Assembly: GCA_017883235.1 (NCBI GenBank)
Contig: JADGNY010000056.1
Span: forward strand, 1 to 39,932
Length of the DNA stretch: 39,932 nucleotides
DNA from: Thermoanaerobaculia bacterium
GTDB lineage: Bacteria; Acidobacteriota; Thermoanaerobaculia; Gp7-AA8
Reading direction: 5' to 3'
Below the pieces are notes generated by a model. It saw only the letters and a program-made list of their open reading frames with translations. It did not search any database and was not told the DNA's origin. Shown in pieces: positions 1,111 to 39,932 of the stretch. The first letter of the stretch is position 1, and each line of letters begins with the position of its first letter. A program made the translations under genes and the position numbers.

Positions 1111-1533
1111 TCAGTTCCGCGAGGCGAGCATCTGCCAGTCGGGATCGTCGCGGAGATAACGGGGCCGCTTCTCTTTCGGTTGGTGAACCTCGGAAAGAGT
1201 CTCGATCATGAGCTGAAACTTCGCCAGGAGATTGCGTTGTGAATGCTTGGGAAGAGAGTGGAGCTCGTCGAGCAGGCGCGCCGTGGCGAACTCTTCCTGG
1301 TCCAGCTCCCAGGGAGCGATCTGTTTTTCCACGCCGCCGCCGAAGAAGTCGGCTTCGGTCATGTCGTAAACGGCCAGAAGCCGTTTCAGCTGGGAGAGCT
1401 TCATGGAGCCGACCCGCTCGCCCGTTTCGAACGAGCTGATCGTCTTTTCGCCGACACCCGAAAGGCGGGCAGCATCTTTCTGGCTCAGCCCTTTGATCCG
1501 GCGGATTTCACGAAGTTTGAGTACGAGATCCAT
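1111..1533 (-). CDS. XRE-family helix-turn-helix regulator
   Basis: 140-aa protein. Residues about 5-60 form an HTH_3/Cro-C1 domain: LREIRRIKGLSQKDAARLSG then GVGEKTISSFETGER, with the usual recognition-helix layout. The C-terminal half is charged, lacks a known sensor domain and may serve dimerisation. The gene starts 21 nt after the lexA stop on the same strand, so the two are probably co-transcribed and this regulator may share the lexA promoter and thus respond to DNA damage (inference). The target is unknown. No phage or toxin genes are adjacent, so a phage repressor is less likely than a chromosomal regulator. Confidence 0.85.
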   Translation of the reverse strand: MDLVLKLREIRRIKGLSQKDAARLSGVGEKTISSFETGERVGSMKLSQLKRLLAVYDMTEADFFGGGVEKQIAPWELDQEEFATARLLDELHSLPKHSQRNLLAKFQLMIETLSEVHQPKEKRPRYLRDDPDWQMLASRN

Positions 1534-1554
1534 GTTGAGTCCTCACTTTCGCGA

Positions 1555-2184
1555 TTAAAAACGGCGCATCAGACCGACAACCACTCCCTGCACGGCGACG
1601 TCGCGGGCAAAGGCGTAGATCGGATGCATCATCGAGTTTGCTGGCTGAAGACGGACTTTTTCGCCTTCTTTGTAGAGACGCTTCAGGGTCACTTCGCCGC
1701 TGACGTTGGCAACGACCATCTCGCCGTTCTCGGCGCGGTCGCGGCGCGCGATGATGACGTAGTCACCATCCATGATTCCGTCATCGATCATCGAGTCCCC
1801 GCGTACCTTGAGCACATAGTTTTCGCCACGGCTGGTGAGCCGCTCGGGTACCGTGATCGTCTCATCGGAGATTTCCACCGCCAGAGGCTGGCCGGCAGCG
1901 ATGTAGCCGAAGAGCGGCAGCTCGAGCACACCGGCCGGCGCAACGGCGCCTGGCCTCGCGTTCTGACCATTCTGCTCAATGACCTCTACCCCGCGCTTCT
2001 GGTTCCAGTCGCGCCGGATCAAGCCCTTCTTCTGGAGCAGTGAGAGGTGTTTGTAGACCGTCCCGTAGGACGAGAACCCGAAGTGGTCGCAAATCTCGCG
2101 GTGCGTCGGAGTGACCCCACGCTCTTTCTGAAAGTCGCGAATGAACTGCAGGATGTCGCGCTGGCGCTCGGTCAAATACGTCAT
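1555..2184 (-). CDS. lexA: LexA repressor (SOS response)
   Basis: 209-aa protein of standard LexA length. Residues 1-70 are the winged-helix DNA-binding domain (LTERQRDILQFIRDF, then FGFSSYGTVYKHLSLLQKKG). Residues about 88-205 are the S24 self-cleaving peptidase domain. The scissile bond is Ala97-Gly98 (YIAAGQP). The catalytic serine is Ser131 in GDSM and the catalytic lysine is Lys168 in VTLKRL, so autocleavage on RecA filaments is expected. Start: ATG with GAGG 5-6 nt upstream. A strong promoter overlapped by a palindrome lies just upstream (2193-2231), which suggests autorepression. The XRE gene downstream is probably in the same transcript. Confidence 0.97.
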   Translation of the reverse strand: MTYLTERQRDILQFIRDFQKERGVTPTHREICDHFGFSSYGTVYKHLSLLQKKGLIRRDWNQKRGVEVIEQNGQNARPGAVAPAGVLELPLFGYIAAGQPLAVEISDETITVPERLTSRGENYVLKVRGDSMIDDGIMDGDYVIIARRDRAENGEMVVANVSGEVTLKRLYKEGEKVRLQPANSMMHPIYAFARDVAVQGVVVGLMRRF

Positions 2185-4684: not shown

Positions 4685-7318
4685 ATGGCGACGAACGAAG
4701 AGCTGAGCAAGCGGTACGAGCCGAAAGAAATCGAACAGCGGCTCTACGAATTCTGGGAGAAGGGTGAATTCTTCACTCCGCTGCTCGATGCCGAGCGGCC
4801 GAAGTTCTCCATTGTCATCCCGCCACCGAACGTCACCGGGCGGCTGCACATCGGCCATGCATTGGTGAACACGCTGCAGGACATCGTCGTCCGCTGGAAG
4901 CGGATGAGTGGGTTCAACACCCTCTGGCTTCCTGGAACCGATCACGCCGGCATTGCCACGCAGATGATCGTCGACCGCAAGCTTGCCAAAGAGGGCATCT
5001 CCCGTTTCGACCTCGGCCGCGAAAAGTTCGTGGAGCGCGTGTGGGAGTGGAAAGAGTCGTACGGACACCAGATCATCGATCAGCTCAAACGCCTCGGCGC
5101 ATCCGCCGACTGGACCCGGCTCCGTTTCACACTCGACGAGGGGCTCGCCCGCGCCGTCCGCACGGCCTTCGTAAAGCTCCACGACGACGGCCTGATCTAC
5201 CGCGGCATCGCCATGGTCAACTGGTGCCCGCACTGCCGCACGGCGATCTCCGACGTGGAGGTCGAGTACGAGGAGCGCGCCTCGAAGCTGTATCACATCG
5301 ACTACCCGGTCGCTGATTCCGGCCGCGTGCTGACGATTGCCACCACCCGCCCCGAGACGATGCTCGGCGATACCGCGCTAGCCGTCCATCCTGACGATGA
5401 GCGATACCAGGACGTCATCGGCCGCGAAGCGATTCTGCCGATCGCCAACCGGCGCATCCCTATCGTCGCCGATCCGATCCTCGTCGACCGCGAGTTCGGC
5501 ACCGGCGTCGTCAAAGTCACGCCGGCGCATGACAAGAACGACTACGAGGCCGGCAAGCGCAACAACCTCGTGCAGTTGCAGGTGATCGACGAGGGCGGCA
5601 GGATGACCGAGGCCGCGGGTGCGGAGTTCGCCGGGCTCGATCGCTTCGACGCGCGGAAGAAAGTCGTGGCGCTGTTGCGTGACTCTGGCGCCCTGGGCGA
5701 CGTCAAGGACTACACCCACTCGATCGGCATTCACGGCAAGTGCGAGACGGTGATCGAACCGATGATCTCGCGGCAGTGGTTCGTGAAGATCGAACCGCTG
5801 GCGAAGCCCGCGATCGACGCCGTGCGCAACGGCACCATCAAGATCCTCCCTCAGAGTTGGGAAGCGACGTACTTCAACTGGATGGAGAACATCCACGACT
5901 GGACGATCTCCCGGCAGCTCTGGTGGGGTCACCGCATCCCAGCCTTCTACTGCGCCAACGGGCACCTGACGGTTTCCGTTGACGATCCAACGACTTGCTC
6001 GCGGTGCGGATTGAACGAATTCACACAGGAGACCGACGTCCTCGACACCTGGTTCTCGTCCGGACTCTGGCCGTTCTCGACCATGGGATGGCCGGAAGAC
6101 ACCCAGGATCTGCGGATTTTCTATCCGACCGACGTCCTGATCACCGGATTCGACATCCTGTTCTTCTGGGTGGCGCGGATGATCATGTTCGGCCTGCGTT
6201 TCACCGGCAAGGCGCCCTTCAGCCAGGTGTTCCTCAACGGGCTCGTGCGGGACGAGAACGGCCAGAAGATGTCGAAGACGAAGGGAAATGTGATCGATCC
6301 GCTCGACGTGATCGACGAGTTCGGTGCCGACGCCGTTCGCTTCACGCTGGCGATCTTCGCTTCAGGCCGCGACATCCCGTTGGCGAAGTCGCGGATGCAG
6401 GGTTATGCGGCGTTCGCGAACAAGATCTGGAACGCGTCGCGCTTCGCGATGATGCATATCGACACAAAACTGTCGTCGGCGAAAGCGATCGAACGCGATG
6501 AGTTGAAGAGCATCGAGCGCTGGATTCTCTCGCGGCTCAACGAGACGACGAAGTCGGTCAACCGAGCGCTCTCCGACTACCGGTACGATGAAGCGTCGAA
6601 CGCGATCTATCAATTCTTCTGGCACGAGTTCTGTGACTGGTACATCGAGATGGCCAAGCCGGTGCTCCTCGGGAGGCACGGCTCCGAGGTCGACCAGCAG
6701 CGTGCCAAACGCATCCTTCTCGAAGTGCTCGACCGGTCGCTGCGGCTGCTCCATCCCTTCATGCCGTTCATCACCGAGGAGCTCTGGCAGAAGCTCGGCG
6801 GCGTCGAGCCGTCGATCATGGTCGCCCTCTATCCCGTGGCCGAGGAGATGTTCGAGGACACCGAGGCCGAGCGGATGGTGCGCGCGGTCCAGGCGATGAT
6901 CACCTCGGTGCGCAACGCCCGGGCGGAGCGGAGTTTTACTCCAAAGGATCGCTTCAAACTCTACGTTCGCTGCGAAGGACGCGATTCGGCGTTCTTCGCG
7001 GACTACGCCTACCTTTTGACCGATCTGGCCCGCCTGACGGAGGTCATCGTCAATGGCGACGCGCCGGCGGGAGCGCATCACGACGTTGTCGAAGGCTTTG
7101 CCATCGCCATCGAGTTTCCGGAGAAGGTGGTCACCAAAGAGCAGCAGGAGCGTGCACAGCGTGAGCTGGAAAAGAGCCGCAAGGAGCTCGAGTCGCTTGA
7201 CGCCAAGCTGGCCAATGAGCAGTTCATGAAGAACGCCCCGCCGGCCATCGTGGAGGGCGCGAAGGCGCGTCAGGCGGAACTGCGGACGAGGATTGAGAAG
7301 CTGTTGCAAAACGAGTGA
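4685..7318 (+). CDS. valS: Valyl-tRNA synthetase
   Basis: 877-aa class I aminoacyl-tRNA synthetase. HIGH motif at residues 55-58 (PPPNVTGRLHIGHAL), KMSKT at 528-532 (NGQKMSKTKGNVIDP), the editing CP1 domain in between (TTRPETMLGDTAL near 220), the anticodon-binding domain after 600, and a C-terminal arginine/lysine-rich coiled coil (last about 65 residues) that grips tRNA in ValRS. The length is standard. The start ATG has a perfect TATAAT 10 nt upstream and no ribosome site. birA follows after a 64-nt gap made of repeat. Confidence 0.98.
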   Translation: MATNEELSKRYEPKEIEQRLYEFWEKGEFFTPLLDAERPKFSIVIPPPNVTGRLHIGHALVNTLQDIVVRWKRMSGFNTLWLPGTDHAGIATQMIVDRKLAKEGISRFDLGREKFVERVWEWKESYGHQIIDQLKRLGASADWTRLRFTLDEGLARAVRTAFVKLHDDGLIYRGIAMVNWCPHCRTAISDVEVEYEERASKLYHIDYPVADSGRVLTIATTRPETMLGDTALAVHPDDERYQDVIGREAILPIANRRIPIVADPILVDREFGTGVVKVTPAHDKNDYEAGKRNNLVQLQVIDEGGRMTEAAGAEFAGLDRFDARKKVVALLRDSGALGDVKDYTHSIGIHGKCETVIEPMISRQWFVKIEPLAKPAIDAVRNGTIKILPQSWEATYFNWMENIHDWTISRQLWWGHRIPAFYCANGHLTVSVDDPTTCSRCGLNEFTQETDVLDTWFSSGLWPFSTMGWPEDTQDLRIFYPTDVLITGFDILFFWVARMIMFGLRFTGKAPFSQVFLNGLVRDENGQKMSKTKGNVIDPLDVIDEFGADAVRFTLAIFASGRDIPLAKSRMQGYAAFANKIWNASRFAMMHIDTKLSSAKAIERDELKSIERWILSRLNETTKSVNRALSDYRYDEASNAIYQFFWHEFCDWYIEMAKPVLLGRHGSEVDQQRAKRILLEVLDRSLRLLHPFMPFITEELWQKLGGVEPSIMVALYPVAEEMFEDTEAERMVRAVQAMITSVRNARAERSFTPKDRFKLYVRCEGRDSAFFADYAYLLTDLARLTEVIVNGDAPAGAHHDVVEGFAIAIEFPEKVVTKEQQERAQRELEKSRKELESLDAKLANEQFMKNAPPAIVEGAKARQAELRTRIEKLLQNE

Positions 7319-9632: not shown

Positions 9633-9787
9633 ACGGGTTGCGCGGTCGCGGGGTTGCGGGGTCTCGCGGTGGTTGGTTGCTCGGTTGCTGAGTTGCAGGG
9701 TTACTGATACGAATCTAAGCACCGCAACAAAACGCAGTAACCCACAACCGCGAGACCGCGTAACCACGCAACCGCAACAGCAACCGC
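9633..9787. repeat. Long family-1 palindrome between ddl and the ABC membrane protein
   Basis: Left arm (about 9637-9703) contains GGGTTGCGCGGTCGCGGGG, GGGGTCTCGCGGTGG and GGTTGCTCGGTTGC units. Right arm (about 9734-9787) contains CAGTAACCCACAACCGCGAG, ACCGCGTAACCACGC and AACCGCAACAGCAACCGC. The loop is near 9705-9733. The 155-nt element fills the entire gap and its right arm ends at the next ATG. Confidence 0.8.
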
Positions 9788-23385: not shown

Positions 23386-23424
23386 GGGCGGGGAACGTTT
23401 GCGGGAATTGTGTCCTTCCCGGCG

Positions 23425-23557
23425 TTGCGCGGTTGCGGGGTCTCGCGGTGTTCGGTTGGCAAGGTTGCTGGTTGCGAGGTTACAGAGTGCCGCTGATGCA
23501 CCCAGCAACCAAGCAACTTTGCAACCCAACAACCGCGAGACCGCGCAACCGCGTAAG
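23425..23557. repeat. Family-1 palindrome between the ligD operon and modB
   Basis: Left arm near 23425-23490 (GTTGCGCGGTTGCGGGGTCT then CGCGGTGTTCGG and AAGGTTGCTGG); right arm near 23508-23557 (CCCAGCAACCAAGC, CAACCGCGAGACCGCGCAAC, CGCG). It fills the divergent promoter region almost entirely. Confidence 0.8.
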
Positions 23558-25315: not shown

Positions 25316-25603
25316 ATGTTGATCAAAGGAATGACCGAGCAGGAGATCCGGGTCCTGCAGGAGTTTCGACGGATGGCCGTGGAGTCACTGCGGATCGCTG
25401 CGATCAAAGGGATCAAGCACCCGGCCGGTGGCGGGGAAACGCCGGCGTTTGCGCTGGTCGACAAGGGATTTCTGACGGCGGACGCGGCACGAGAGAACTT
25501 CGCCCTCACCGGGAAAGCGAAGGATTTCCTCTCGTACGACCCGAAGCCGGAGTTCGAGGAGACAGGCGCCGCGGGGGCGGTTTCGGCGGATGCCGCTGAA
25601 TGA
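25316..25603 (+). CDS. Small protein of unknown function
   Basis: 95 aa, not recognised. The first 70 residues are mixed helical and charged (MTEQEIRVLQEFRRMAVESL; GIKHPAGGGETPAFALVDKG; TADAARENFALTGKAKDFL), and the tail is Ala/Glu-rich. No signal peptide or membrane segment. The pattern 'FALVDKGFLTADAARENFALT' hints at a winged-helix wing-like segment, but this is weak. Third-position G/C use is like neighbouring genes, which supports real coding. It starts just after a repeat arm and a TACAAT box and is followed by an inverted repeat. Confidence 0.65.
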   Translation: MLIKGMTEQEIRVLQEFRRMAVESLRIAAIKGIKHPAGGGETPAFALVDKGFLTADAARENFALTGKAKDFLSYDPKPEFEETGAAGAVSADAAE

Positions 25604-25700: not shown

Positions 25701-25729
25701 TTGACTCAGGAACTTAGCTGTCGTAGCAT
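25701..25729 (+). promoter_or_regulatory. Sigma-70-type promoter of the antitoxin-like/Doc-like pair
   Basis: TTGACT (25701-25706), a 17-nt spacer, TAGCAT (25724-25729). The expected transcription start is about 25736, leaving a short leader with the ribosome site GAGG (25738-25741) before the ATG at 25749. Confidence 0.55.
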
Positions 25730-25748
25730 GTGTCGCCGAGGATTGGAA

Positions 25749-26099
25749 ATGAAAGATGGCGACAAAGCAAAAGCCAAAGCAGCCAAAGCCAAAGCCTCAG
25801 GGAAAAAAGTCAGCAGCAAAAGCGCCGCAAAAGAAAAAGGCGGCAAAGCCGTCAAAGCCGGCAGCAAAAAAGAAAGCAGCCCCTCCGCCAAAGGCCAAGC
25901 CGAAAAAAAAAGCGGCAGCACGGGTAGCGTCAAAGCCGCTCCCAAAGCCGTCGCCAAAGCCCTCTCCATCCCCAAAAGCAACGGCAAATCCCCCCGCGCC
26001 GACGCCGAAGCCATCACCTTCACCAATCCAGCCATCGAGAGCGCCTTCAAGCGCGCCGTCAAGAAATATCCCAACGCTTTCCGCCGCCTTACCGATTGA
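25749..26099 (+). CDS. Lysine/alanine-rich protein, candidate antitoxin partner of the Doc-like gene
   Basis: 116 aa from ATG with GAGG 7 nt upstream. Residues 1-85 are a low-complexity basic tail (Lys, Ala, Ser, Gly; like histone H1 tails), suited to binding nucleic acid. Residues about 86-116, EAITFTNPAIESAFKRAVKK then YPNAFRRLTD, look like a short folded segment. This frame has almost only C at third codon positions, the genome habit, while the overlapping +1 frame (25756 onward, in frame with the Doc gene) is A/G-ending, so this frame is the real one. It stops 7 nt before the Doc-like ATG, the usual spacing of toxin-antitoxin pairs. Confidence 0.68.
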   Translation: MKDGDKAKAKAAKAKASGKKVSSKSAAKEKGGKAVKAGSKKESSPSAKGQAEKKSGSTGSVKAAPKAVAKALSIPKSNGKSPRADAEAITFTNPAIESAFKRAVKKYPNAFRRLTD

Positions 26100-26106
26100 C
26101 AGCGGG

Positions 26107-26535
26107 ATGCGGTATCTCAGCGTTCAGGACCTGGTAGAGCTGCATCGTGCGGTCAGCACGGAGTTCGGCGGCAATCAGGCCCATCCCGGCGTGGTCGATT
26201 CGCAGTTCGGTCTGCTGAACGCCGTGCAGCGGCCGCAGGTGACGATGCTCGGCCGCGAGGCATACTCCACATTTCCCGACAAAGTGGCGGCGTTCCTGTT
26301 CGCACTGCTCATCAACAGCCCGTTCCGCGGCGGCAATCGCCGCGTGGCGCTTGCGTCGCTCTTCGCGTTCTGCGAGCTCAATAGCCGGACCGTCGATTCC
26401 CGCATCCTCGACGAGAAAGCTGCCGAGGGTCTCTTCAAACGTGCCGCCGGCCATCGCGAGCTCGGTATCCCGCCGGAAAACGTTTTCCGGGAGATCCGCG
26501 AGATGATGGCGCGCGCGATCGTGCCGCTGTCGTAG
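26107..26535 (+). CDS. Doc/Fic-family protein with a degenerate active site
   Basis: 142 aa from ATG. The sequence follows the death-on-curing family: YLSVQDLVELHRAVSTEFGG, HPGVVDSQFGLLNAVQRPQV, and DKVAAFLFALLINSPFRGGN then RRVALASLFAF. Active Doc has HPFxDGNKR; here the line is SPFRGGNRR, with serine 71 in place of the catalytic histidine and glycine in place of the acidic residue. Kinase or AMP transfer activity is therefore doubtful. It is coupled to the basic partner gene upstream. The frame is also open upstream to 25756, but that part has the wrong codon pattern and overlaps the partner gene. Confidence 0.8.
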   Translation: MRYLSVQDLVELHRAVSTEFGGNQAHPGVVDSQFGLLNAVQRPQVTMLGREAYSTFPDKVAAFLFALLINSPFRGGNRRVALASLFAFCELNSRTVDSRILDEKAAEGLFKRAAGHRELGIPPENVFREIREMMARAIVPLS

Positions 26536-26655
26536 TGCGGTCTCGCAGTTGCGGGGTTGCACGGTCTCGCGGTGTGGTTTGATGAAATGTAGCGGTACGG
26601 CGAAAAATCGGGTTAAACGCACCGCGAGACCGCGTAACCGCGAGACCCGCAACCG
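26536..26655. repeat. Family-1 palindrome between two convergent genes
   Basis: Left arm GCGGTCTCGCAGTTGCGGGG then TTGCACGGTCTCGCGGTGTGG; right arm ACCGCGAGACCGCGTAACCG then CGAGACCCGCAACCGC, with a loop near 26580-26620. It fills the entire 120-nt gap between the stops of the Doc-like and zinc-ribbon genes and could act as a bidirectional terminator. Confidence 0.8.
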
Positions 26656-27102
26656 CTACTTCTTCTCCCTCTCCTCCCGCTCATGCATCGCCGCATTGAT
26701 CCTTCCCAGCAGGATGCGGGCGACGCGCAGATCGTGACCAGCGTCGATGAGCAGGATGGTGATGTCACCGCCAGCCCACAACAGGCCGGCCACGACGAAC
26801 AGCCGCACCGCTTCGACGAGGAGCGTCATGAGCGAGGCCAGACCGCTCGTGATCACGCCGGTGACCACTTCGCCAAGCAGGATGACCAGCAGCAGAAGTG
26901 CAAGGACCTTGAACAGCCGCGCGATGTAACGCAGCGCCACATACGGCTCGAGATCCTCCGTGCGCACTTCGCTGTCCCGCGCGCGCTTATCGTCCGCGCG
27001 TACCGGCGGCGCCCCGCAGGCCGGGCAGACCCGCGACGGATCGGAGCGCGCCGCGCTGCATTCGGGACAGGTTGTTGGAGTGTTCGCTACTGCTTCGACC
27101 AC
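26656..27102 (-). CDS. Zinc-ribbon membrane protein of unknown function
   Basis: 148 aa from GTG, chosen because a strong AGGAGG lies 4 nt upstream (27112-27107); an open frame to 27171 covers repeat sequence. Two CPxC pairs (Cys12/15 CPEC and Cys26/29 CPAC) form a zinc ribbon at the N terminus. Two hydrophobic segments follow (LFKVLALLLLVILLGEVVTG and LVEAVRLFVVAGLLWAGGD). The tail is charged (EREEREKK). Such zinc-ribbon/TM proteins are common and uncharacterised. Confidence 0.78.
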   Translation of the reverse strand: MVEAVANTPTTCPECSAARSDPSRVCPACGAPPVRADDKRARDSEVRTEDLEPYVALRYIARLFKVLALLLLVILLGEVVTGVITSGLASLMTLLVEAVRLFVVAGLLWAGGDITILLIDAGHDLRVARILLGRINAAMHEREEREKK

Positions 27103-27128
27103 GGTACCTCCTGGTGGGTCAGTCGATT

Positions 27129-27195
27129 GGTGGATTAGTAGATTAGGTGCCCGAAACTGCGTTCTAAACACTGATCTACTAATCTACTAATCTAC
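27129..27195. repeat. Palindromic ATTAGTAG array
   Basis: Left arm GGTGGATTAGTAGATTAGGT (27129-27148) and right arm GATCTACTAATCTACTAATC then TACC (27173-27195) are complementary, built from an 8-bp ATTAGTAG unit. It is AT-rich in an otherwise GC-rich genome. It lies between the zinc-ribbon gene start and the M15-like gene stop. Confidence 0.75.
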
Positions 27196-32970: not shown

Positions 32971-33885
32971 TTGCGACTGATCTTCTTCGGCACTCCCGAG
33001 TTCGCGGTTCCCACACTCGAAGCACTGGCGCTCGACCACGACATCGCCCTCGTCGTAGCGCAACCGGGCAAACCTGCCGGCCGCGGGATGAAGATGCACG
33101 CGCCGGCGGTGGCGGTGAAGGCGCGTCAGCTTGGATTGCCGTTGGCGCAACCGGCGAAGATTCGCAACCCTGAGTTTCTCGAATCGATTTCCGCGCTGCA
33201 GGCAGACGCCGGCATCGTCGTCGCGTACGGAAAGATCCTGCCGGCGAGTCTGCTGTCGATTCCGCCGCGAGGGTTCCTGAACGTGCACGCCTCGATCCTG
33301 CCGAAGTATCGGGGCGCGGCGCCGATCCAGCGCGCCATCGAACATGGCGAGACCACCACCGGCGTGACGATCATGCGCATCGACGAGGAGGTCGATCACG
33401 GTCCGATGCTGGCGGTCGAGACGACGGAGATCGGTCCCGATGAACGGACGCCGTCGCTTGCGGCGCGCCTCTCGCGGCTTGGCGCGGAGGCGCTGGCAGG
33501 GGTGCTCGCGTCGCCGCCGTCCGAAACGCCACAGGATCACGCCGCAGCAACCTACGCACCGAAGATCGAAAAGAGCGAAGGAGCGATCCGCTGGACCGAG
33601 ACGACCGCGGCGATCTACAACAAGTTCCGCGCCTTCGATCCCTGGCCGGGCGTCTTCTCGGGGGATCTGAAGCTCATCGACATCGCACCTGCTTCGGGTC
33701 ACGGTGAGCCCGGAACGATTCTCTCGACCAGCAGCGACGGCGTGATCGTCGCGACTGGTGACGGGGCGCTGCGGTTGATTACGGTTCAGCGGCCTGGAAA
33801 AGGGCCGGTTAGCGCAGAGTCCATAAAGTCAATCCTGACGGTGAGCGGAGCGAGCCCGTCAGGATCTCCGGTGATATTGCGCTGA
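32971..33885 (+). CDS. fmt: Methionyl-tRNA formyltransferase
   Basis: 304 aa from TTG. Formylates initiator Met-tRNA using 10-formyl-THF. N-terminal catalytic domain: LIFFGTPEFAVPTLEAL, GKPAGRGMKM, DAGIVVAYGKILPASLL (the catalytic Asn-x-His region follows: NVHASILPKYRGAAPIQRAI) and GVTIMRIDEEVDHGPML. The C-terminal OB fold spans about 205-295 (KIEKSEGAIRWTETTAAIYN; FDPWPGVFS). The last about 18 residues (IKSILTVSGASPSGSPVILR) are encoded by the BIME-like repeat and are probably added by its insertion. rsmB follows after that repeat. Confidence 0.95.
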   Translation: MRLIFFGTPEFAVPTLEALALDHDIALVVAQPGKPAGRGMKMHAPAVAVKARQLGLPLAQPAKIRNPEFLESISALQADAGIVVAYGKILPASLLSIPPRGFLNVHASILPKYRGAAPIQRAIEHGETTTGVTIMRIDEEVDHGPMLAVETTEIGPDERTPSLAARLSRLGAEALAGVLASPPSETPQDHAAATYAPKIEKSEGAIRWTETTAAIYNKFRAFDPWPGVFSGDLKLIDIAPASGHGEPGTILSTSSDGVIVATGDGALRLITVQRPGKGPVSAESIKSILTVSGASPSGSPVILR

Positions 33886-34080
33886 ACCAGCCACATGCGC
33901 AAAAAGCATCGACCGCGCGGTATAACCGGATGTCTCAAAGTCCTATCCTGACGGTGAGCGGAGCGAGCCTGTCAGGATCTCCGGTGATATGGCGCTGAAT
34001 TAACCCACATACGCAAAAGGCATCGACCGCGCGGTATAACCGGAGATCCTGCCTAGGTTCGCTTCGCTCACCGGCAGGAT
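33832..34080. repeat. BIME/MITE-like element, two tandem copies (fmt-rsmB gap)
   Basis: Copy 1 (33832-33929) and copy 2 (33945-34080) both start ATCCTGACGGTGAGCGGAGC and share the internal stretches CTCCGGTGATAT, GCATCGACCGCGCGGTATAA and CCGG. Copy 2 ends with the inverted terminus (GAGATCCTGC...CACCGGCAGGAT). Each end is itself a hairpin (ATCCTGACGG...CGTCAGGAT). Copy 1 lacks its right terminus. Confidence 0.85.
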
Positions 34081-34085
34081 AGGCA

Positions 34086-35234
34086 TTGACTACTACAGAT
34101 CGCCAGCGAGCCCTCCAACTCCTCCGCCGCATCGAGCGCGAGTCAGCCTTTGCGTCCCTCCTTCTGGCGAACGACACCGGCTTCGTCCGCACCCTCGTCC
34201 TTGGCGTGCTCCGGTGGCGCTCGCGGCTCGATTTCGTGATCGATGCCTTTGCGAAGGGGGCCATCGAGCCAGAGATCCGCGACATCCTTCGTCTCGGCGC
34301 ACTGCAATTGTTGTTCATGCATGTCGCACCGCACGCCGCTGTCGGCGAGACGGTGCAGCTCGCACCGCTGCGGGCACGGGGATTCGTGAACGCCATTCTC
34401 CGACGGATTTCAAAGAACGCCCCGGAGCCGGCGGATGTGGCCACCCGAACGGCGCACCCGCGATGGCTCATCGATCGCTGGGGCCGGACATACGGCGCCG
34501 AGCGCGCAGCGAAGATCGCCGAGGCGAATCAGGAGCTGTCGTTTCCTGACGTCATGACCGACTCGCCGCCGCCCGGCGCCACCGCCTCGGCGCTCGTCCC
34601 CGGCATGTGGAAACTGACCGGATCGAGTGCGGATGTCGAGGGGGTCGTGCTCGATGAAGGGAGCGCCGTCATCGCCGGCATCGCCGCCGCGGCTGGCGAC
34701 GATGTTCTCGATCTCGCCGCCGCGCCCGGAGGGAAGTCGCTGGTGATGCGCGCGCGGGGCGCAGGCGTAATCAGCAACGACATCTCCATCGCCCGCCTGC
34801 GCCCACTCATCGGCCGGTCGGACGCGCTCGTGGTCAGTGATGGCCGGCGTCCGCCGTTTGCGCGGCAGTTCCGTGTCGTCCTGCTCGACGCCCCATGCAG
34901 CGCCACCGGCACGATCCGCAAGAATCCGGAGCTCAAGTGGCGGCTCGCCGAGGCTGATCTGGCGTCGTTCGCGGCCCTCCAACGTGAACTGCTCGCCTCC
35001 GCGCTCGATCTGGCATCGGAGACGGTCATCTATTCGACCTGCTCGCTGGAACCGGAAGAGAACGACGCGGTCGTCGATGACGTCCTTCGCAGGGGAAACG
35101 ACTTCGTCCGCGGCGATGTAGCGAAGTTTGTGAACGCCAACGTGGCGCGGTGGGTGGAGGGCGGCGTGCTTCGTCTGACGCCGGAGGCGGGGACGGACGG
35201 GTTTACGGCGCAGGTGCTTTTCAGGTCATCCTGA
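34086..35234 (+). CDS. rsmB: 16S rRNA m5C967-type methyltransferase RsmB
   Basis: 382 aa from TTG. The N-terminal NusB-like RNA-binding domain (about 1-125: RQRALQLLRRIERESAFAS, LRLGALQLLFMH, AVGETVQLA, GFVNAILRRI) is followed by the methyltransferase domain. SAM-binding: DVLDLAAAPGGKSLVM; catalytic cysteines in LLDAPCSATGTIRKNPELKW and VIYSTCSLEPEEN. The C-terminal TDGFTAQVLF is typical for the family. The last codons and stop (TCC TGA) come from the start of the next BIME-like element. fmt and rsmB are neighbours in many bacteria. Confidence 0.94.
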   Translation: MTTTDRQRALQLLRRIERESAFASLLLANDTGFVRTLVLGVLRWRSRLDFVIDAFAKGAIEPEIRDILRLGALQLLFMHVAPHAAVGETVQLAPLRARGFVNAILRRISKNAPEPADVATRTAHPRWLIDRWGRTYGAERAAKIAEANQELSFPDVMTDSPPPGATASALVPGMWKLTGSSADVEGVVLDEGSAVIAGIAAAAGDDVLDLAAAPGGKSLVMRARGAGVISNDISIARLRPLIGRSDALVVSDGRRPPFARQFRVVLLDAPCSATGTIRKNPELKWRLAEADLASFAALQRELLASALDLASETVIYSTCSLEPEENDAVVDDVLRRGNDFVRGDVAKFVNANVARWVEGGVLRLTPEAGTDGFTAQVLFRSS

Positions 35235-35428
35235 CGGCGAGCGCAGCGAGCCTGTCAGGATCTCCGGTTATCCCGCGATGATTGAACCTGCGTCCCCGAG
35301 GTATCTCCGGTTGTCCCGCGATGAGTGAGCCTACGGCCGCGCGGTATCGCCGGAGATCCTGACGGGCTCGCTGGCGCTCACCGTCAGGATAAACTTCACA
35401 CAGGTTCGCTGGCGCTCACCGTCAGGAT
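35228..35428. repeat. BIME/MITE-like element plus an extra terminus (rsmB-GH15 gap)
   Basis: Starts ATCCTGACGGCGAGCGCAGC in the last codons of rsmB and ends with CCGGAGATCCTGACGGGCTC ... CACCGTCAGGAT at 35390; a further half terminus (GGTTCGCTGGCGCTCACCGT CAGGAT) runs to 35428. Two internal copies of TCTCCGGTT(A/G)TCCCGCGATGA are present. It fills the complete gap. Confidence 0.85.
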
Positions 35429-35439
35429 AGACTGAGGTA

Positions 35440-37479
35440 TTGGCTCGCGACCTACTCATCGGCAACGGATCACTCGTCATCGGCTTCGACGCCGCTTACC
35501 GGATCGCAGACGTCTACTTTCCGCATGTCGGCCTCGAGAATCATGCCGGCGAGCGTTTCCGGTTCGGCGTCTCCGCGGACGGCGCGTTTTCCTGGGTGGA
35601 GAGCGATCAATGGCAGCGGACTCTCACCTATCTGCGCGAGACCAACGTCACCGATGTCAACTGCGTGAACGAAGACCTCGGCATTCGTCTTCGCTGCTAC
35701 GACGTGGTCGACTCCGAGACCAATGTCTATGTGCGGAAGATCGTCGTCCGCAATCTGCGGAGCGAGCCCCGGCGGGTGAAGCTTTTCTTCCACCACGGTT
35801 TCGAGCTGTACGGCAGTCCGAACGCCGATACGGCGATGTTCGATCCCGATTCGGCCAGCATCATCCACTACAAAGCCAAGCGGTACTTTCTCGTCAGTGG
35901 CGCGACTGATGCCGGTTCCGGCGTCAGCGAGTATTCGTGCGGGCGCGCCGGCATCGATGACAGCGAAGGGACGTGGCGCGACGCCGAAGACGGCGTGCTG
36001 TCGATGAATGCAATCCAGCAGGGAGCCGTCGATTCGACGATCGCGTTTCCTGTCGACCTCGAGCCGCTCGGCAGCCAGACGGCGTTCTACTGGATTTGCG
36101 CCGGCGCGCGCTACGGCGAGGTGCGGAAGCTCGATCAATACGTGCGCGAGGAGACGCCGGCACGGATCATCGCCCGCACCGCCTCGCTCTGGTACACGTG
36201 GGTCAAAAAATCCGCCGAGGACCTCAGCGACCTCCCCGAGGAGATTCTGGATCTGTATCGGCGATCGCTGCTGGTCGTGCAGACGCATTGTGACCACGCG
36301 GGAGGGATCGTGGCCGCGGCCGATTCCGACATCGAGGTCGGCCACAACGACCACTACGCCTACGTCTGGCCGCGCGACGGATCCTTCGTCGCCGACGCCA
36401 TGGACCGGGCCGGATTTCATCACATCGCGCGCCGATTCCTGCAGTTCGCGCACGGCACGATCAGTAACGATGGTTACTTTCTCCACAAGTACGCCCCGGA
36501 TGGTTCGGTGGCGTCGTCGTGGAATCCGTGGGTACGCGATGGGAAGAAGCAGTTGCCGATTCAGGAGGACGGGACCGCGCTGGTGGTCTGGCTTCTGGCG
36601 CGGCACTGGGACAGGACGCGCGATCTCGAATTCATCCGCGGCGTCTACCGGCGGCTGGTCGTTCAGCCGGCCGACTTCATGGCGCGGTTCCGCGATCCGG
36701 AGACGCATCTCCCCCTGCCGTCGTTCGATATGTGGGAGGAGCGGCAGGGTGTCTTCACCTTTACGTCGTCAGCGGTTTGCGCGGCGCTGCAGGCGGCGGC
36801 TGATCTGGCGAATCTGTTCAACGAGCAGGATCGCCGCACGCATTACCTGCAGGTTGCCGCGGAGATCCGCGAGGCGATGGTGCGGCATCTCTGGCTCGAG
36901 GATGAGGGGCGCTTCGCGCGTGGGTTGACGTTGCACGGCGATGCGCTGGAGCTCGACCGTACCGTCGATGCCTCGACCTTCGCCACCTTTTTTCTCGGCG
37001 TGTTCGCACCCGACACGGCCATGGTGGAAGGGACGATGCGCGCAATCCGCGAGACGCTTTGGGTGCAGACCGAGATCGGCGGCGTTGCGCGCTACGCGAA
37101 CGACCGCTACCAGAGCAAGGTGGCGAACGACGATCCGGTGCCGGGAAACCCGTGGCTGATCTGCACGCTCTGGCTTGCCGAGCACGCCGTGGCCCGGGCC
37201 ACATCGATCGCCGAACTGCAGTCGGCGCTCGACCTTCTGCGCTGGGTCCGCGCGAAGGCGCGTCCGTCGCTTGTGCTTCCCGAGCAGGTTCATCCACATA
37301 CCGGTGCGTCGCTGTCGGTTTCCCCGTTTTCGTGGAGCCACGCGCAGGTCGTTTCGGTCGTCCGCGGATATCTCGACAGACTTCATTTTCTACGCCGGAA
37401 TGGCGCTGAAAATGCGTCGCGTGCACAAGCGAAAAATGTCGCCGGTAACTCCGTTGACAAACCATCTTCGTTCTCATAG
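35440..37479 (+). CDS. Glycoside hydrolase family 15 (glucoamylase-like)
   Basis: 679 aa from TTG. Full-length bacterial GH15: residues 1-270 are the N-terminal beta-sandwich (RDLLIGNGSLVIGFDAAYRI, DVYFPHVGLENHAGERFRF), and 290-650 the (alpha/alpha)6 barrel. Active-site motifs: HYAYVWPRDGSFVADAM, LPSFDMWEERQGVFT (acid Glu433/434) and LVLPEQVHPHTG (base Glu615) with PFSWSHAQVV. It likely cleaves alpha-glucosidic bonds of starch, isomaltose or trehalose. No signal peptide, so cytoplasmic; a role in storage-sugar use is inference. A TAGACT box 6 nt before the TTG could make it leaderless. The HU promoter lies in its last codons. Confidence 0.9.
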   Translation: MARDLLIGNGSLVIGFDAAYRIADVYFPHVGLENHAGERFRFGVSADGAFSWVESDQWQRTLTYLRETNVTDVNCVNEDLGIRLRCYDVVDSETNVYVRKIVVRNLRSEPRRVKLFFHHGFELYGSPNADTAMFDPDSASIIHYKAKRYFLVSGATDAGSGVSEYSCGRAGIDDSEGTWRDAEDGVLSMNAIQQGAVDSTIAFPVDLEPLGSQTAFYWICAGARYGEVRKLDQYVREETPARIIARTASLWYTWVKKSAEDLSDLPEEILDLYRRSLLVVQTHCDHAGGIVAAADSDIEVGHNDHYAYVWPRDGSFVADAMDRAGFHHIARRFLQFAHGTISNDGYFLHKYAPDGSVASSWNPWVRDGKKQLPIQEDGTALVVWLLARHWDRTRDLEFIRGVYRRLVVQPADFMARFRDPETHLPLPSFDMWEERQGVFTFTSSAVCAALQAAADLANLFNEQDRRTHYLQVAAEIREAMVRHLWLEDEGRFARGLTLHGDALELDRTVDASTFATFFLGVFAPDTAMVEGTMRAIRETLWVQTEIGGVARYANDRYQSKVANDDPVPGNPWLICTLWLAEHAVARATSIAELQSALDLLRWVRAKARPSLVLPEQVHPHTGASLSVSPFSWSHAQVVSVVRGYLDRLHFLRRNGAENASRAQAKNVAGNSVDKPSSFS

Positions 37480-37482
37480 ATT
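37454..37482 (+). promoter_or_regulatory. Strong sigma-70-type promoter of the HU gene
   Basis: Perfect TTGACA (37454-37459), 17-nt spacer, TAGATT (37477-37482). It overlaps the final codons and stop of the GH15 gene. The leader to the HU ATG at 37537 is about 45 nt and includes the ribosome site AAGAGGAG. Confidence 0.8.
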
Positions 37483-37536
37483 GCGAAAAACCTAGGAAAC
37501 ATCCCGGTTTTACCCATCGGTAAGAGGAGATCGTCT

Positions 37537-37833
37537 ATGGCAGGCAAGGGTGACGTCATCAATGAAATCGCCGAACAGGCGGGCATTTCGAAGAAGGAAG
37601 CCGCGGCCGCGTTCGACGCGTTCGTAGGCTACATTTCCAGCACGTGTCAGAGCGGTGAGCGCTGCGCCATTCCGGGGCTCGGCAGCTTTGCCGTATCGCA
37701 GCGAAAAGCGCGCGAAGGCCGCAATCCCCGCACGAACGAAAAGATCACGATTCCCGCATCGAAGAACGTCCGCTTCAAGGCAGGCAAAGACTTGCGCGAG
37801 GCGGTGAATACGAAGCGCGCCAAGAAGCGGTAA
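37537..37833 (+). CDS. HU-family DNA-binding protein
   Basis: 98 aa. Standard HU/IHF fold: helices KGDVINEIAEQAGISKKEAA and AAFDAFVGYIS, the beta-saddle GERCAIPGLGSFAVSQRKAR, and the arm EGRNPRTNEKITIPASK (the RNP-T-x-E-x-I/V-x-I-P tip). Basic C terminus (KRAKKR). It bends and packages DNA as a dimer. A strong promoter (37454-37482), a good ribosome site (AAGAGGAG) and a terminator at 37858 make a well-expressed single-gene unit. Confidence 0.96.
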   Translation: MAGKGDVINEIAEQAGISKKEAAAAFDAFVGYISSTCQSGERCAIPGLGSFAVSQRKAREGRNPRTNEKITIPASKNVRFKAGKDLREAVNTKRAKKR

Positions 37834-37857
37834 TCGCAAATCGCGCATCGGTCGAAG

Positions 37858-37879
37858 CGCCCCGCCGGCGGGGCGTTTT
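37858..37879 (+). terminator. Rho-independent terminator of the HU gene
   Basis: An 18-bp perfect palindrome CGCCCCGCCGGCGGGGCG (37858-37875) is followed by TTTT. Confidence 0.9.
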
Positions 37880-37902
37880 CATTTTGCGACGTATTCCTTG
37901 TC

Positions 37903-38069
37903 ATCCTGACGGTGAGCGAAGCGAGCCTGTCAGGATCTCCGGTGGCACCGCGAGGTCGTTGCCAGGAGCAGGGATGGAGCGAAACTGCCAGAGATCCTCG
38001 CCAACAGGGAAATTAAGCGCGGTCTCACCGGAGATCCTGACGGGTGTCGCTGCGCGACACCATCAGGAT
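37903..38069. repeat. BIME/MITE-like element (HU-HAD gap)
   Basis: 167 bp. Starts ATCCTGACGGTGAGCGAAGC, then GAGCCTGTCAGGATCTCCGG; ends CCGGAGATCCTGACGGGTGT then CGCTGCGCGACACCATCAGGAT. Terminal inverted repeats of about 40 bp. The right end encodes the C terminus and stop of the HAD gene on the minus strand. Confidence 0.85.
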
Positions 38070-39724: not shown

Positions 39725-39768
39725 GCGCGCACTTTATCGCGAGCCTCCTCCTTCGAGAGGCTTCGAAG

Positions 39769-39932
39769 TCGCATGCAAGGGACTCGGAGTCGCAAAATGA
39801 GACTCGGGGGTCGCATGCAAGGGACTCAAGGGTCGCAAAATGAGACTCGGGGGTCGCATGCAAGGGACTCGGAGTCGCAAAATGAGACTCGGGGGTCGCA
39901 TGCAAGGGACTCAAGGGTCGCAAAATGAGACT
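39769..39932. repeat. Higher-order tandem repeat array running off the window
   Basis: Alternating half-units TCGCATGCAAGGGACTCGGA-G (21 bp) or ...ACTCAAGGG (22 bp) and TCGCAAAATGAGACTCGGGG-G (21 bp). The pattern 21+21+22+21 makes an 85-bp higher-order unit; almost two copies are visible, near identical. No unique spacers, so not a CRISPR array. It starts 45 nt upstream of the dGTPase start. Confidence 0.9.

Follow-up and report, generated by a model that had tools for sequence, protein, structure and literature searches.

An antitoxin-derived gene and a degenerate Doc-like gene that may be read from two neighbouring start codons over one stretch of DNA in Thermoanaerobaculia

In the Phd-Doc system, the C-terminus of the antitoxin inserts into Doc as a bent helix in a concave surface, as described in PMC13034048. 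For TasA, the antitoxin of the TasAB-type mazE-doc modules, PMC1626090 describes a GNS motif at the N-terminus and good conservation at the C-terminus. Bacterial examples of overlapping frames that begin at adjacent AUGs are scarce: a study from 2022 gives Thermus rnpA-rpmH as the only earlier case of such an overlap and reports pqiA and tamA as further ambiguous starts from its own work (PMC9841429). Here we describe a Doc-like gene and its partner at positions 25749 to 26535 of contig JADGNY010000056.1 from a Thermoanaerobaculia bacterium (assembly GCA_017883235.1, 6.9 Mb in 246 contigs). The 39,932 nucleotides analysed are referred to as the window, and all positions are those of the window. 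The explanation that we favour, with a probability of roughly 0.6, is that the pair derives from a MazE/AbrB-Doc module and now forms a non-catalytic complex of two polycationic tails, translated from two competing AUGs.

We call the partner gene A (25749–26099), and gene 0, or frame 0, the Doc frame opened at ATG(0), position 25756. The features of the locus are as follows.

25701–25729, plus strand: promoter-like site, with −35 TTGACT (25701–25706), a spacer of 17 and −10 TAGCAT (25724–25729)
25738–25741, plus strand: Shine-Dalgarno-like GAGG, 7 nt before the ATG of A and 14 nt before ATG(0)
25749–26099, plus strand: gene A, 116 aa, most likely antitoxin-derived, a basic Lys/Ala/Ser tail plus C-peptide; open in 18/18 full-tail rows
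25756–26535, plus strand: gene 0, 259 aa, a basic tail rich in K, P and A (117 aa) that continues in frame into a Doc-like domain
25756–26099, plus strand: putative dual-coded stretch, 344 nt, where gene 0 is read in +1 to A
26025–26096, plus strand: antitoxin-type C-peptide, the last 24 codons of A, NPAIESAFKRAVKKYPNAFRRLTD
26107–26535, plus strand: Doc-like (putative Fic fold) domain, with matches to Pfam PF02661, PHROG 577 and P1 Doc structures
26317–26343, plus strand: degenerate Fic motif SPFRGGNRR, replacing HxFx(D/N)(A/G)NKR

The pair was compared across the window's family (f1, 18 genomes in 12 genera) and its sister family (f2, one genome). All tests on the tails use the 18 rows with a complete tail, 17 from f1 (window included) and one from f2; they exclude the contig-truncated row L009, and L023 represents genome G007. 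The Doc frame stays open upstream to the ATG at 25756, 7 nt after that of A, and both ATGs are found at this spacing in 17/17 f1 rows, most of which share the start region AUGAAGCAUGG (7 nt). The f2 start region, AUGAAUGG, reads ATGAATGG and places the starts 4 nt apart. Both frames are open there as well, frame 0 giving a 158-aa H1-like tail before the domain and A a product of 152 aa that ends in GFQKVVKKYAGVLGKLRE. Across the overlap, none of the 18 rows has a stop in A or frame 0, and 13 of them are interrupted in the third frame. The window's A terminates in FTNPAIESAFKRAVKKYPNAFRRLTD, with 7 nt between its stop and the ATG at 26107; the distance from the beginning of the stop codon to the first matched Doc codon is 7 to 16 nt in f1 generally and 22 nt in f2. 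The stop itself is variable (TGA, TAA or TAG), and reads TGAC in 12/18 rows. Dual coding of the tail stretch is well supported by the sequence.

Codon choice avoids stops in both frames. An NTG codon in A that precedes an adenine would create a stop in frame 0, and NTG is absent from A's Val/Leu codons (0/143; 0/71 before an adenine and 0/72 elsewhere). The corresponding values are 144/323 and 506/1456 in 21 long, non-overlapping, uncurated open reading frames (ORFs) of the window, and 40/95 and 146/407 in the loci's own Doc domains. In frame 0, a codon ending in T before AA, AG or GA would stop A, and none of 374 codons in this position ends so, compared with 142/1072 elsewhere in the same tails and 131/1554 in the long ORFs. 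Of the TG dinucleotides in the tails of the 17 f1 rows, none lies on phase 1 or 2 of the A codon and all 46 lie on phase 3, where no TGN codon arises in either frame.

The pattern of substitution differs between the tail and the C-terminal end of A. Tail changes in five close pairs, counted without correction for relatedness as are all substitution counts here, fall on A codon positions 1, 2 and 3 in numbers of 124, 103 and 74 when aligned on frame 0, and of 102, 93 and 81 when aligned on A. Frame 0's wobble position leads modestly (124/301 changes; 24/42 in the closest pair, L001/L002), and A's third position has no lead. Of the 55 changes in the final 26 codons of A, 43 lie at A's third position (five close pairs, protein alignments), and amino-acid entropy there in the 17 f1 rows is 0.76 for A vs 1.25 for frame 0. 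In the tail, each frame seems to constrain the other, frame 0 being somewhat dominant; in the C-peptide stretch A seems to dominate, and frame 0, here a linker, to yield.

The C-terminus of A most likely retains the C-peptide of a MazE/AbrB-type antitoxin. An antitoxin-like ORF lies immediately upstream in 14/16 other Doc genes of the class, and six of these 14 are of MazE/AbrB type; L030 and L045 match Pfam MazE_antitoxin above its cut-off, and the remaining four fall below it, at E 8e-4 to 0.04. Examples of their C-termini are VAKLKRGLDRMHKRYAGAFRRLAQ, RRRLRKAVDEIHELYAGAFRRLAE and QKKFEKALDKVNRKYGRALKRLAE. When 24-residue C-termini were compared ungapped, aligned from the last residue, the 18 A C-termini scored 13.7 to 29.2 against the six MazE/AbrB-type antitoxins. 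For four of these rows shuffled sequences were scored as well; they had means of −16 to −19 (standard deviation ~8), with 0, 3, 1 and 0 of 20,000 reaching the observed score, and 0/619 other long-ORF C-termini reached the lowest A score. With all fourteen upstream antitoxin-like ORFs as reference, 0/20,000 shuffles reached the observed value.

Neither Pfam nor NCBIfam gave a match to the A protein of the window at E 10, the MazE/AbrB domain included; at E 0.1 Pfam detects MazE in all six reference antitoxins. PADLOC and PHROG gave no match to A, and a PDB search with it no result. The former DNA-binding domain of A thus appears to have been replaced by the Lys/Ala/Ser tail. A prior reading of the window, made from the sequence alone and here called the sequence-only reading, had described a toxin-antitoxin-like pair with an altered Doc, which our analysis supports; its view that the partner, which it contrasted with Phd, is unlike an antitoxin was not supported, since A's C-terminus resembles those of MazE/AbrB-type Doc antitoxins. 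The overlap of the two frames had escaped that reading.

The Doc-like domain passes the Pfam Fic model PF02661 (E 4.5e-8, 34.3 bits, cut-off 24) and matches PHROG 577, a Doc-like toxin, at E 3.1e-12. The NCBIfam Doc model TIGR01550 reaches 21 bits, below its cut-off of 38.65, and PADLOC gave weak Doc-domain matches to candidate systems, the best being PDC-S23 (E 1.4e-5). Five further Fic domains above cut-off are encoded in the window's genome. At the position of the motif histidine, the 19 genomes carry Ser (8), Arg (9), Gln (1) or His (1), and the catalytic His and the Asp/Asn occur together in 0/19. L016 and L017 keep the Asp and have Arg in place of His. The motif Asn and the last Arg are kept in 19/19 rows. 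Among the 16 other Doc homologues of the class, 14 carry HPFxDGNKR, L045 has HPYVDGNKR and L040 is interrupted. This comparison supports the view that the Doc-like domain has lost its catalytic residues. The SPFRGGNRR of the sequence-only reading is located within a domain that passes Pfam Fic, and the loss of the motif that it noted in one genome extends across the order-level group, which rules out a point mutation confined to a single genome. Its caveat that a close relative might have an intact histidine is borne out as far as one row goes: L010 reads HPFKGGNRR, with Gly at the Asp position. L010 groups in the tree with L009 (Arg; support 96/85), so the His in this row may be secondary.

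Both tails carry a strong positive charge, the net values over the 18 rows being +14 to +53 for A and +17 to +62 for frame 0. AlphaFold2 (AF2) predicts the frame-0 tail of gene 0 to be disordered (8 sequences). For A (9 sequences), only the C-terminal helices at residues 94–106 and 108–115 are confident, with a predicted local distance difference test score of ~90 for residues 91–110; the rest is a low-complexity basic tail predicted to be disordered. Neither tail matches Pfam or NCBIfam above the curated cut-off. In composition and charge, both resemble the bacterial histone H1-like Lys/Ala/Pro-rich proteins, and the presence of two basic tails would be compatible with the DNA-binding regulator suggested in the sequence-only reading. 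Structure comparison of the AF2 domain, itself of modest confidence, placed P1 Doc chains at the top (Z 9.1, 8.5 and 8.0). The best of these has a root-mean-square deviation of 3.5 over 122 aligned residues, and unrelated helical TetR proteins reach Z 5.5. Foldseek with the same domain gave a best E of 0.028 and no match at or below 0.001.

The domain was sought in 148 genomes of the class Thermoanaerobaculia and found in 18/18 f1 genomes and in the one f2 genome, with one copy of this type per genome (19/19); the Doc homologues in the eight further genomes of the class that gave a hit at E ≤ 1e-9 are more distant. Across Acidobacteriota, a profile search covering 396 genomes returned at E 1e-20 only f1 and f2 genomes (7), and close relatives of the domain in named records come from Acidobacteriota metagenome-assembled genomes, Thermoanaerobaculia and Gp7 among them. 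In a tree that excludes G007 (L018/L023) and L040, 18 rows (17 f1, 1 f2) form one clade (100/100) on a long branch vs 15 other Doc homologues of the class. Partner A was found by profile search in 18/18 f1 genomes, in G013 only as its last 22 residues at a contig end. The search missed the f2 copy (G018), which the reading frames of L019 revealed, so that A as a novelty of f1 alone is ruled out. It also returned a marginal match in G067 (E 0.0068), a genome from outside the order, and in G001 a second match that is partial and lies at a contig end. The co-occurrence of the partner, proposed as a check in the sequence-only reading, was found in every genome where the locus is readable, with the frame conserved. 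A 95-aa ORF neighbours the pair in 16/18 f1 loci, the other two starting at contig ends, and a zinc-ribbon gene lies beside it in 14/18; neither was found in 20 kb of f2. The pair looks like a fixed, vertically inherited one, and a recent mobile toxin-antitoxin (TA) module is ruled out by its presence in 18/18 family genomes together with conserved neighbours.

The promoter that the sequence-only reading placed before the pair is present at 25701–25729. The pattern TTGACT-N17-TAGCAT was found once, with 0.3 expected in shuffles, and by eye a TTGAC with a −10-like box stands at the equivalent place in 16/16 f1 rows having upstream sequence (window included) and likewise in the f2 row. The Shine-Dalgarno-like box of f1 reads GAGG in 14/17 rows and GGGG in L005, L016 and L017. 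A search for RNA families gave no match.

Sequence comparison supports an antitoxin origin for the C-terminus of A, the loss of catalytic residues and the conservation of starts and frames, and these would fit the following course of events. One mRNA from the conserved promoter, likely with a short leader given the promoter's place, would carry both AUGs, 7 nt apart (4 nt in f2), between which ribosomes would split. Initiation at the first would give A, a basic disordered tail ending in a toxin-binding-type peptide; initiation at the second would read the 344 nt in +1 as another basic tail, followed by the Doc-like domain. Both proteins would thus be made. A's C-peptide probably still clasps the Doc-like fold, which would yield a dimer with two basic tails. 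Judging from its charge, such a two-tailed polycation may be a structural or nucleoid protein, akin to histone H1, that binds DNA, RNA or polyphosphate, and not a toxin. More tentatively, the ancestor of an acidobacterial order may have exapted the pair as a non-catalytic two-chain polycation, in which the old peptide and toxin fold serve only as the clasp joining histone-like tails, and the two competing AUGs keep in step the tails that one DNA stretch encodes in two frames.

Several observations weigh against this explanation. With codons redrawn from window usage, the frames would stay open by chance in ~0.13 (frame 0) and ~0.12 (A) of cases per sequence (geometric means), and the third frame is open in 5/17 f1 rows, where the redraw model gives <5% each; this excess of open third frames indicates that the low-complexity composition itself lowers stop frequency. 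The 18 rows are mutually related, so that counts over them are not independent. A's tail residues are poorly conserved, and the tail may be just tolerated coding. The six MazE/AbrB-type antitoxins used for the C-peptide comparison were picked after the likeness had been noticed, and against the eight other upstream antitoxin-like ORFs A scored −15.8 to −7.4, with 2843/20,000 shuffles reaching L001, which is no signal. ATG(0) lies 13–14 nt from the Shine-Dalgarno-like box, a suboptimal distance, and a shorter Doc product from an internal start is possible. Finally, the AF2 model of the Doc-like domain has only modest confidence, with ten-residue means of ~44–84.

The strongest competing explanation, which we nevertheless consider unlikely, is a TA pair that still works, with an activity independent of the motif histidine and neutralised by A. 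It would account for the retention of the pair, the gene order and the C-peptide, and for the motif Asn and last Arg kept in all rows; AvrB is, according to PMC2686095, a Fido protein without several motif residues. The histidine position, varying as it does among S, R, Q and H, speaks against it, as do the single copy in each of the 19 genomes and the conserved neighbours in f1. Mobile TA loci are generally unlike this. Less probable again is that the locus produces just A and a separate short Doc, started at 26107 or inside the tail and translated by coupling, with the open frame 0 a by-product of Lys/Ala-rich coding. The window does have an ATG 7 nt after A's stop, behind AGCGGG, and L013 a GTG there; other antitoxin-Doc pairs of the class show that layout, the start of the domain coincides with that of P1 Doc, and 17/18 rows contain, at unshared positions in the tail or at the domain, at least one in-frame ATG, GTG or TTG besides ATG(0). 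However, ATG in the window and GTG in L013 are the only start codons at the domain's first codon, the 16 other full-tail rows and L009 having no ATG, GTG or TTG there, and L002 has none in frame from ATG(0) to domain residue 12. A short Doc would also leave unexplained why ATG(0) is kept in 18/18 rows and why A avoids NTG.

That frame 0 is the sole gene, a basic-tailed Doc-like protein, and A is untranslated seems very improbable to us. The lead of frame 0's wobble position among tail changes, in the closest pair and in the five pairs alike, is what this would predict, but A's last 26 codons change mostly at A's own third position, its C-end has the lower entropy and resembles antitoxin C-termini, frame 0 avoids T before AA, AG and GA, and the Shine-Dalgarno-like box is better placed for A's ATG. 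We give least credence to programmed +1 frameshifting near A's stop, which would join A to Doc so that the fusion carries A's own tail. Frame 0 is indeed the +1 frame of A, and TGAC, the form of A's stop in two-thirds of the rows, is a weak stop context. The stop nevertheless varies between rows, no conserved slippery site was seen by eye, and a frameshift leaves both the conserved ATG(0) and the tail-wide avoidance of stops unexplained. Two proteins from two competing AUGs, assembled into a non-catalytic polycationic complex, remain our preferred reading.

Some further observations concern related loci and the surroundings of the pair. In G007 (L018/L023, contig 312), the Doc-like domain lies in two pieces in two frames, an assembly error or real decay, with the A frame and the tail frame open. 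L030 holds at 1498–1767 (plus strand) an antitoxin-Doc pair with an intact motif (HPFLDGNKR); the antitoxin's stop precedes the first matched Doc residue by 5 nt, and the Doc frame has no ATG, GTG or TTG between the upstream stop and that residue.

Within the window, the 95-aa ORF upstream of the pair lies at 25316–25603 (plus strand) and has no Pfam, NCBIfam, PADLOC or PHROG match. Convergent with the pair, 26656–27171 (minus strand) encodes a Cys-motif protein, zinc-ribbon-like by eye, with hydrophobic stretches; it is the gene that stands beside the pair in 14/18 f1 loci. Interspersed repeats occur at 1070–1102, 9634–9674, 23421–23461, 26537–26577 and 33832–37957; one type, GCGGTTGCGGGGTTGCGCGGTCTCGCGG, has 7 copies, some overlapping, and another, ATCCTGACGGTGAGCG (55 nt), has 4 copies in the window plus a weak fifth at 5388. 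At the window's end (39757–39926), an 85-nt unit stands in two tandem copies with internal TCGCATGCAAGGGACTC repetition.

If the preferred reading is correct, the locus indicates how an addiction module could become a fixed gene, presumably a structural one, in a group of soil bacteria (Acidobacteriota, Thermoanaerobaculia, Gp7 group): catalysis was lost and the antitoxin peptide kept, the DNA-binding domain was exchanged for a basic tail, and the toxin start moved into the antitoxin. It makes testable how two frames share one initiation region, and whether this sharing sets the ratio of the two proteins. A literature search by title and abstract, with subscription journals mostly outside its reach, returned no paper on such a pair. 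In annotation such a pair would lose one frame; standard programs disallow long overlaps, as stated in PMC8665328.

Among described systems, Thermus rnpA-rpmH is close in its initiation: two AUGs a few nucleotides apart behind one Shine-Dalgarno sequence open two overlapping frames, in Thermus as AUGGAUG. It differs in that expression has been shown there and is predicted for our pair, and in the genes involved, the present overlap being between an antitoxin derivative and the tail of its partner. With P1 Phd-Doc, the locus shares a probable Doc fold and a C-terminus of the antitoxin-like partner predicted as two short helices; unlike in that system, A has no detected Phd domain and HxFx(D/N)(A/G)NKR is not kept. 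The TasAB-type mazE-doc modules are alike in having the antitoxin gene directly upstream of the Doc gene, and their antitoxin C-termini (e.g., YAGAFRRLAE) match that of A (YPNAFRRLTD) ungapped; among the class homologues, the GNS motif is carried by L021, L022, L024, L030 and L044. They are unlike the present pair in that A has no detected MazE/AbrB domain, the catalytic motif of Doc is lost and the Doc start lies inside the antitoxin gene. Because two defining features, the antitoxin's DNA-binding domain and the catalytic motif, fail, we did not file the pair as a MazE/AbrB-Doc member; it is most likely a derivative of that system.
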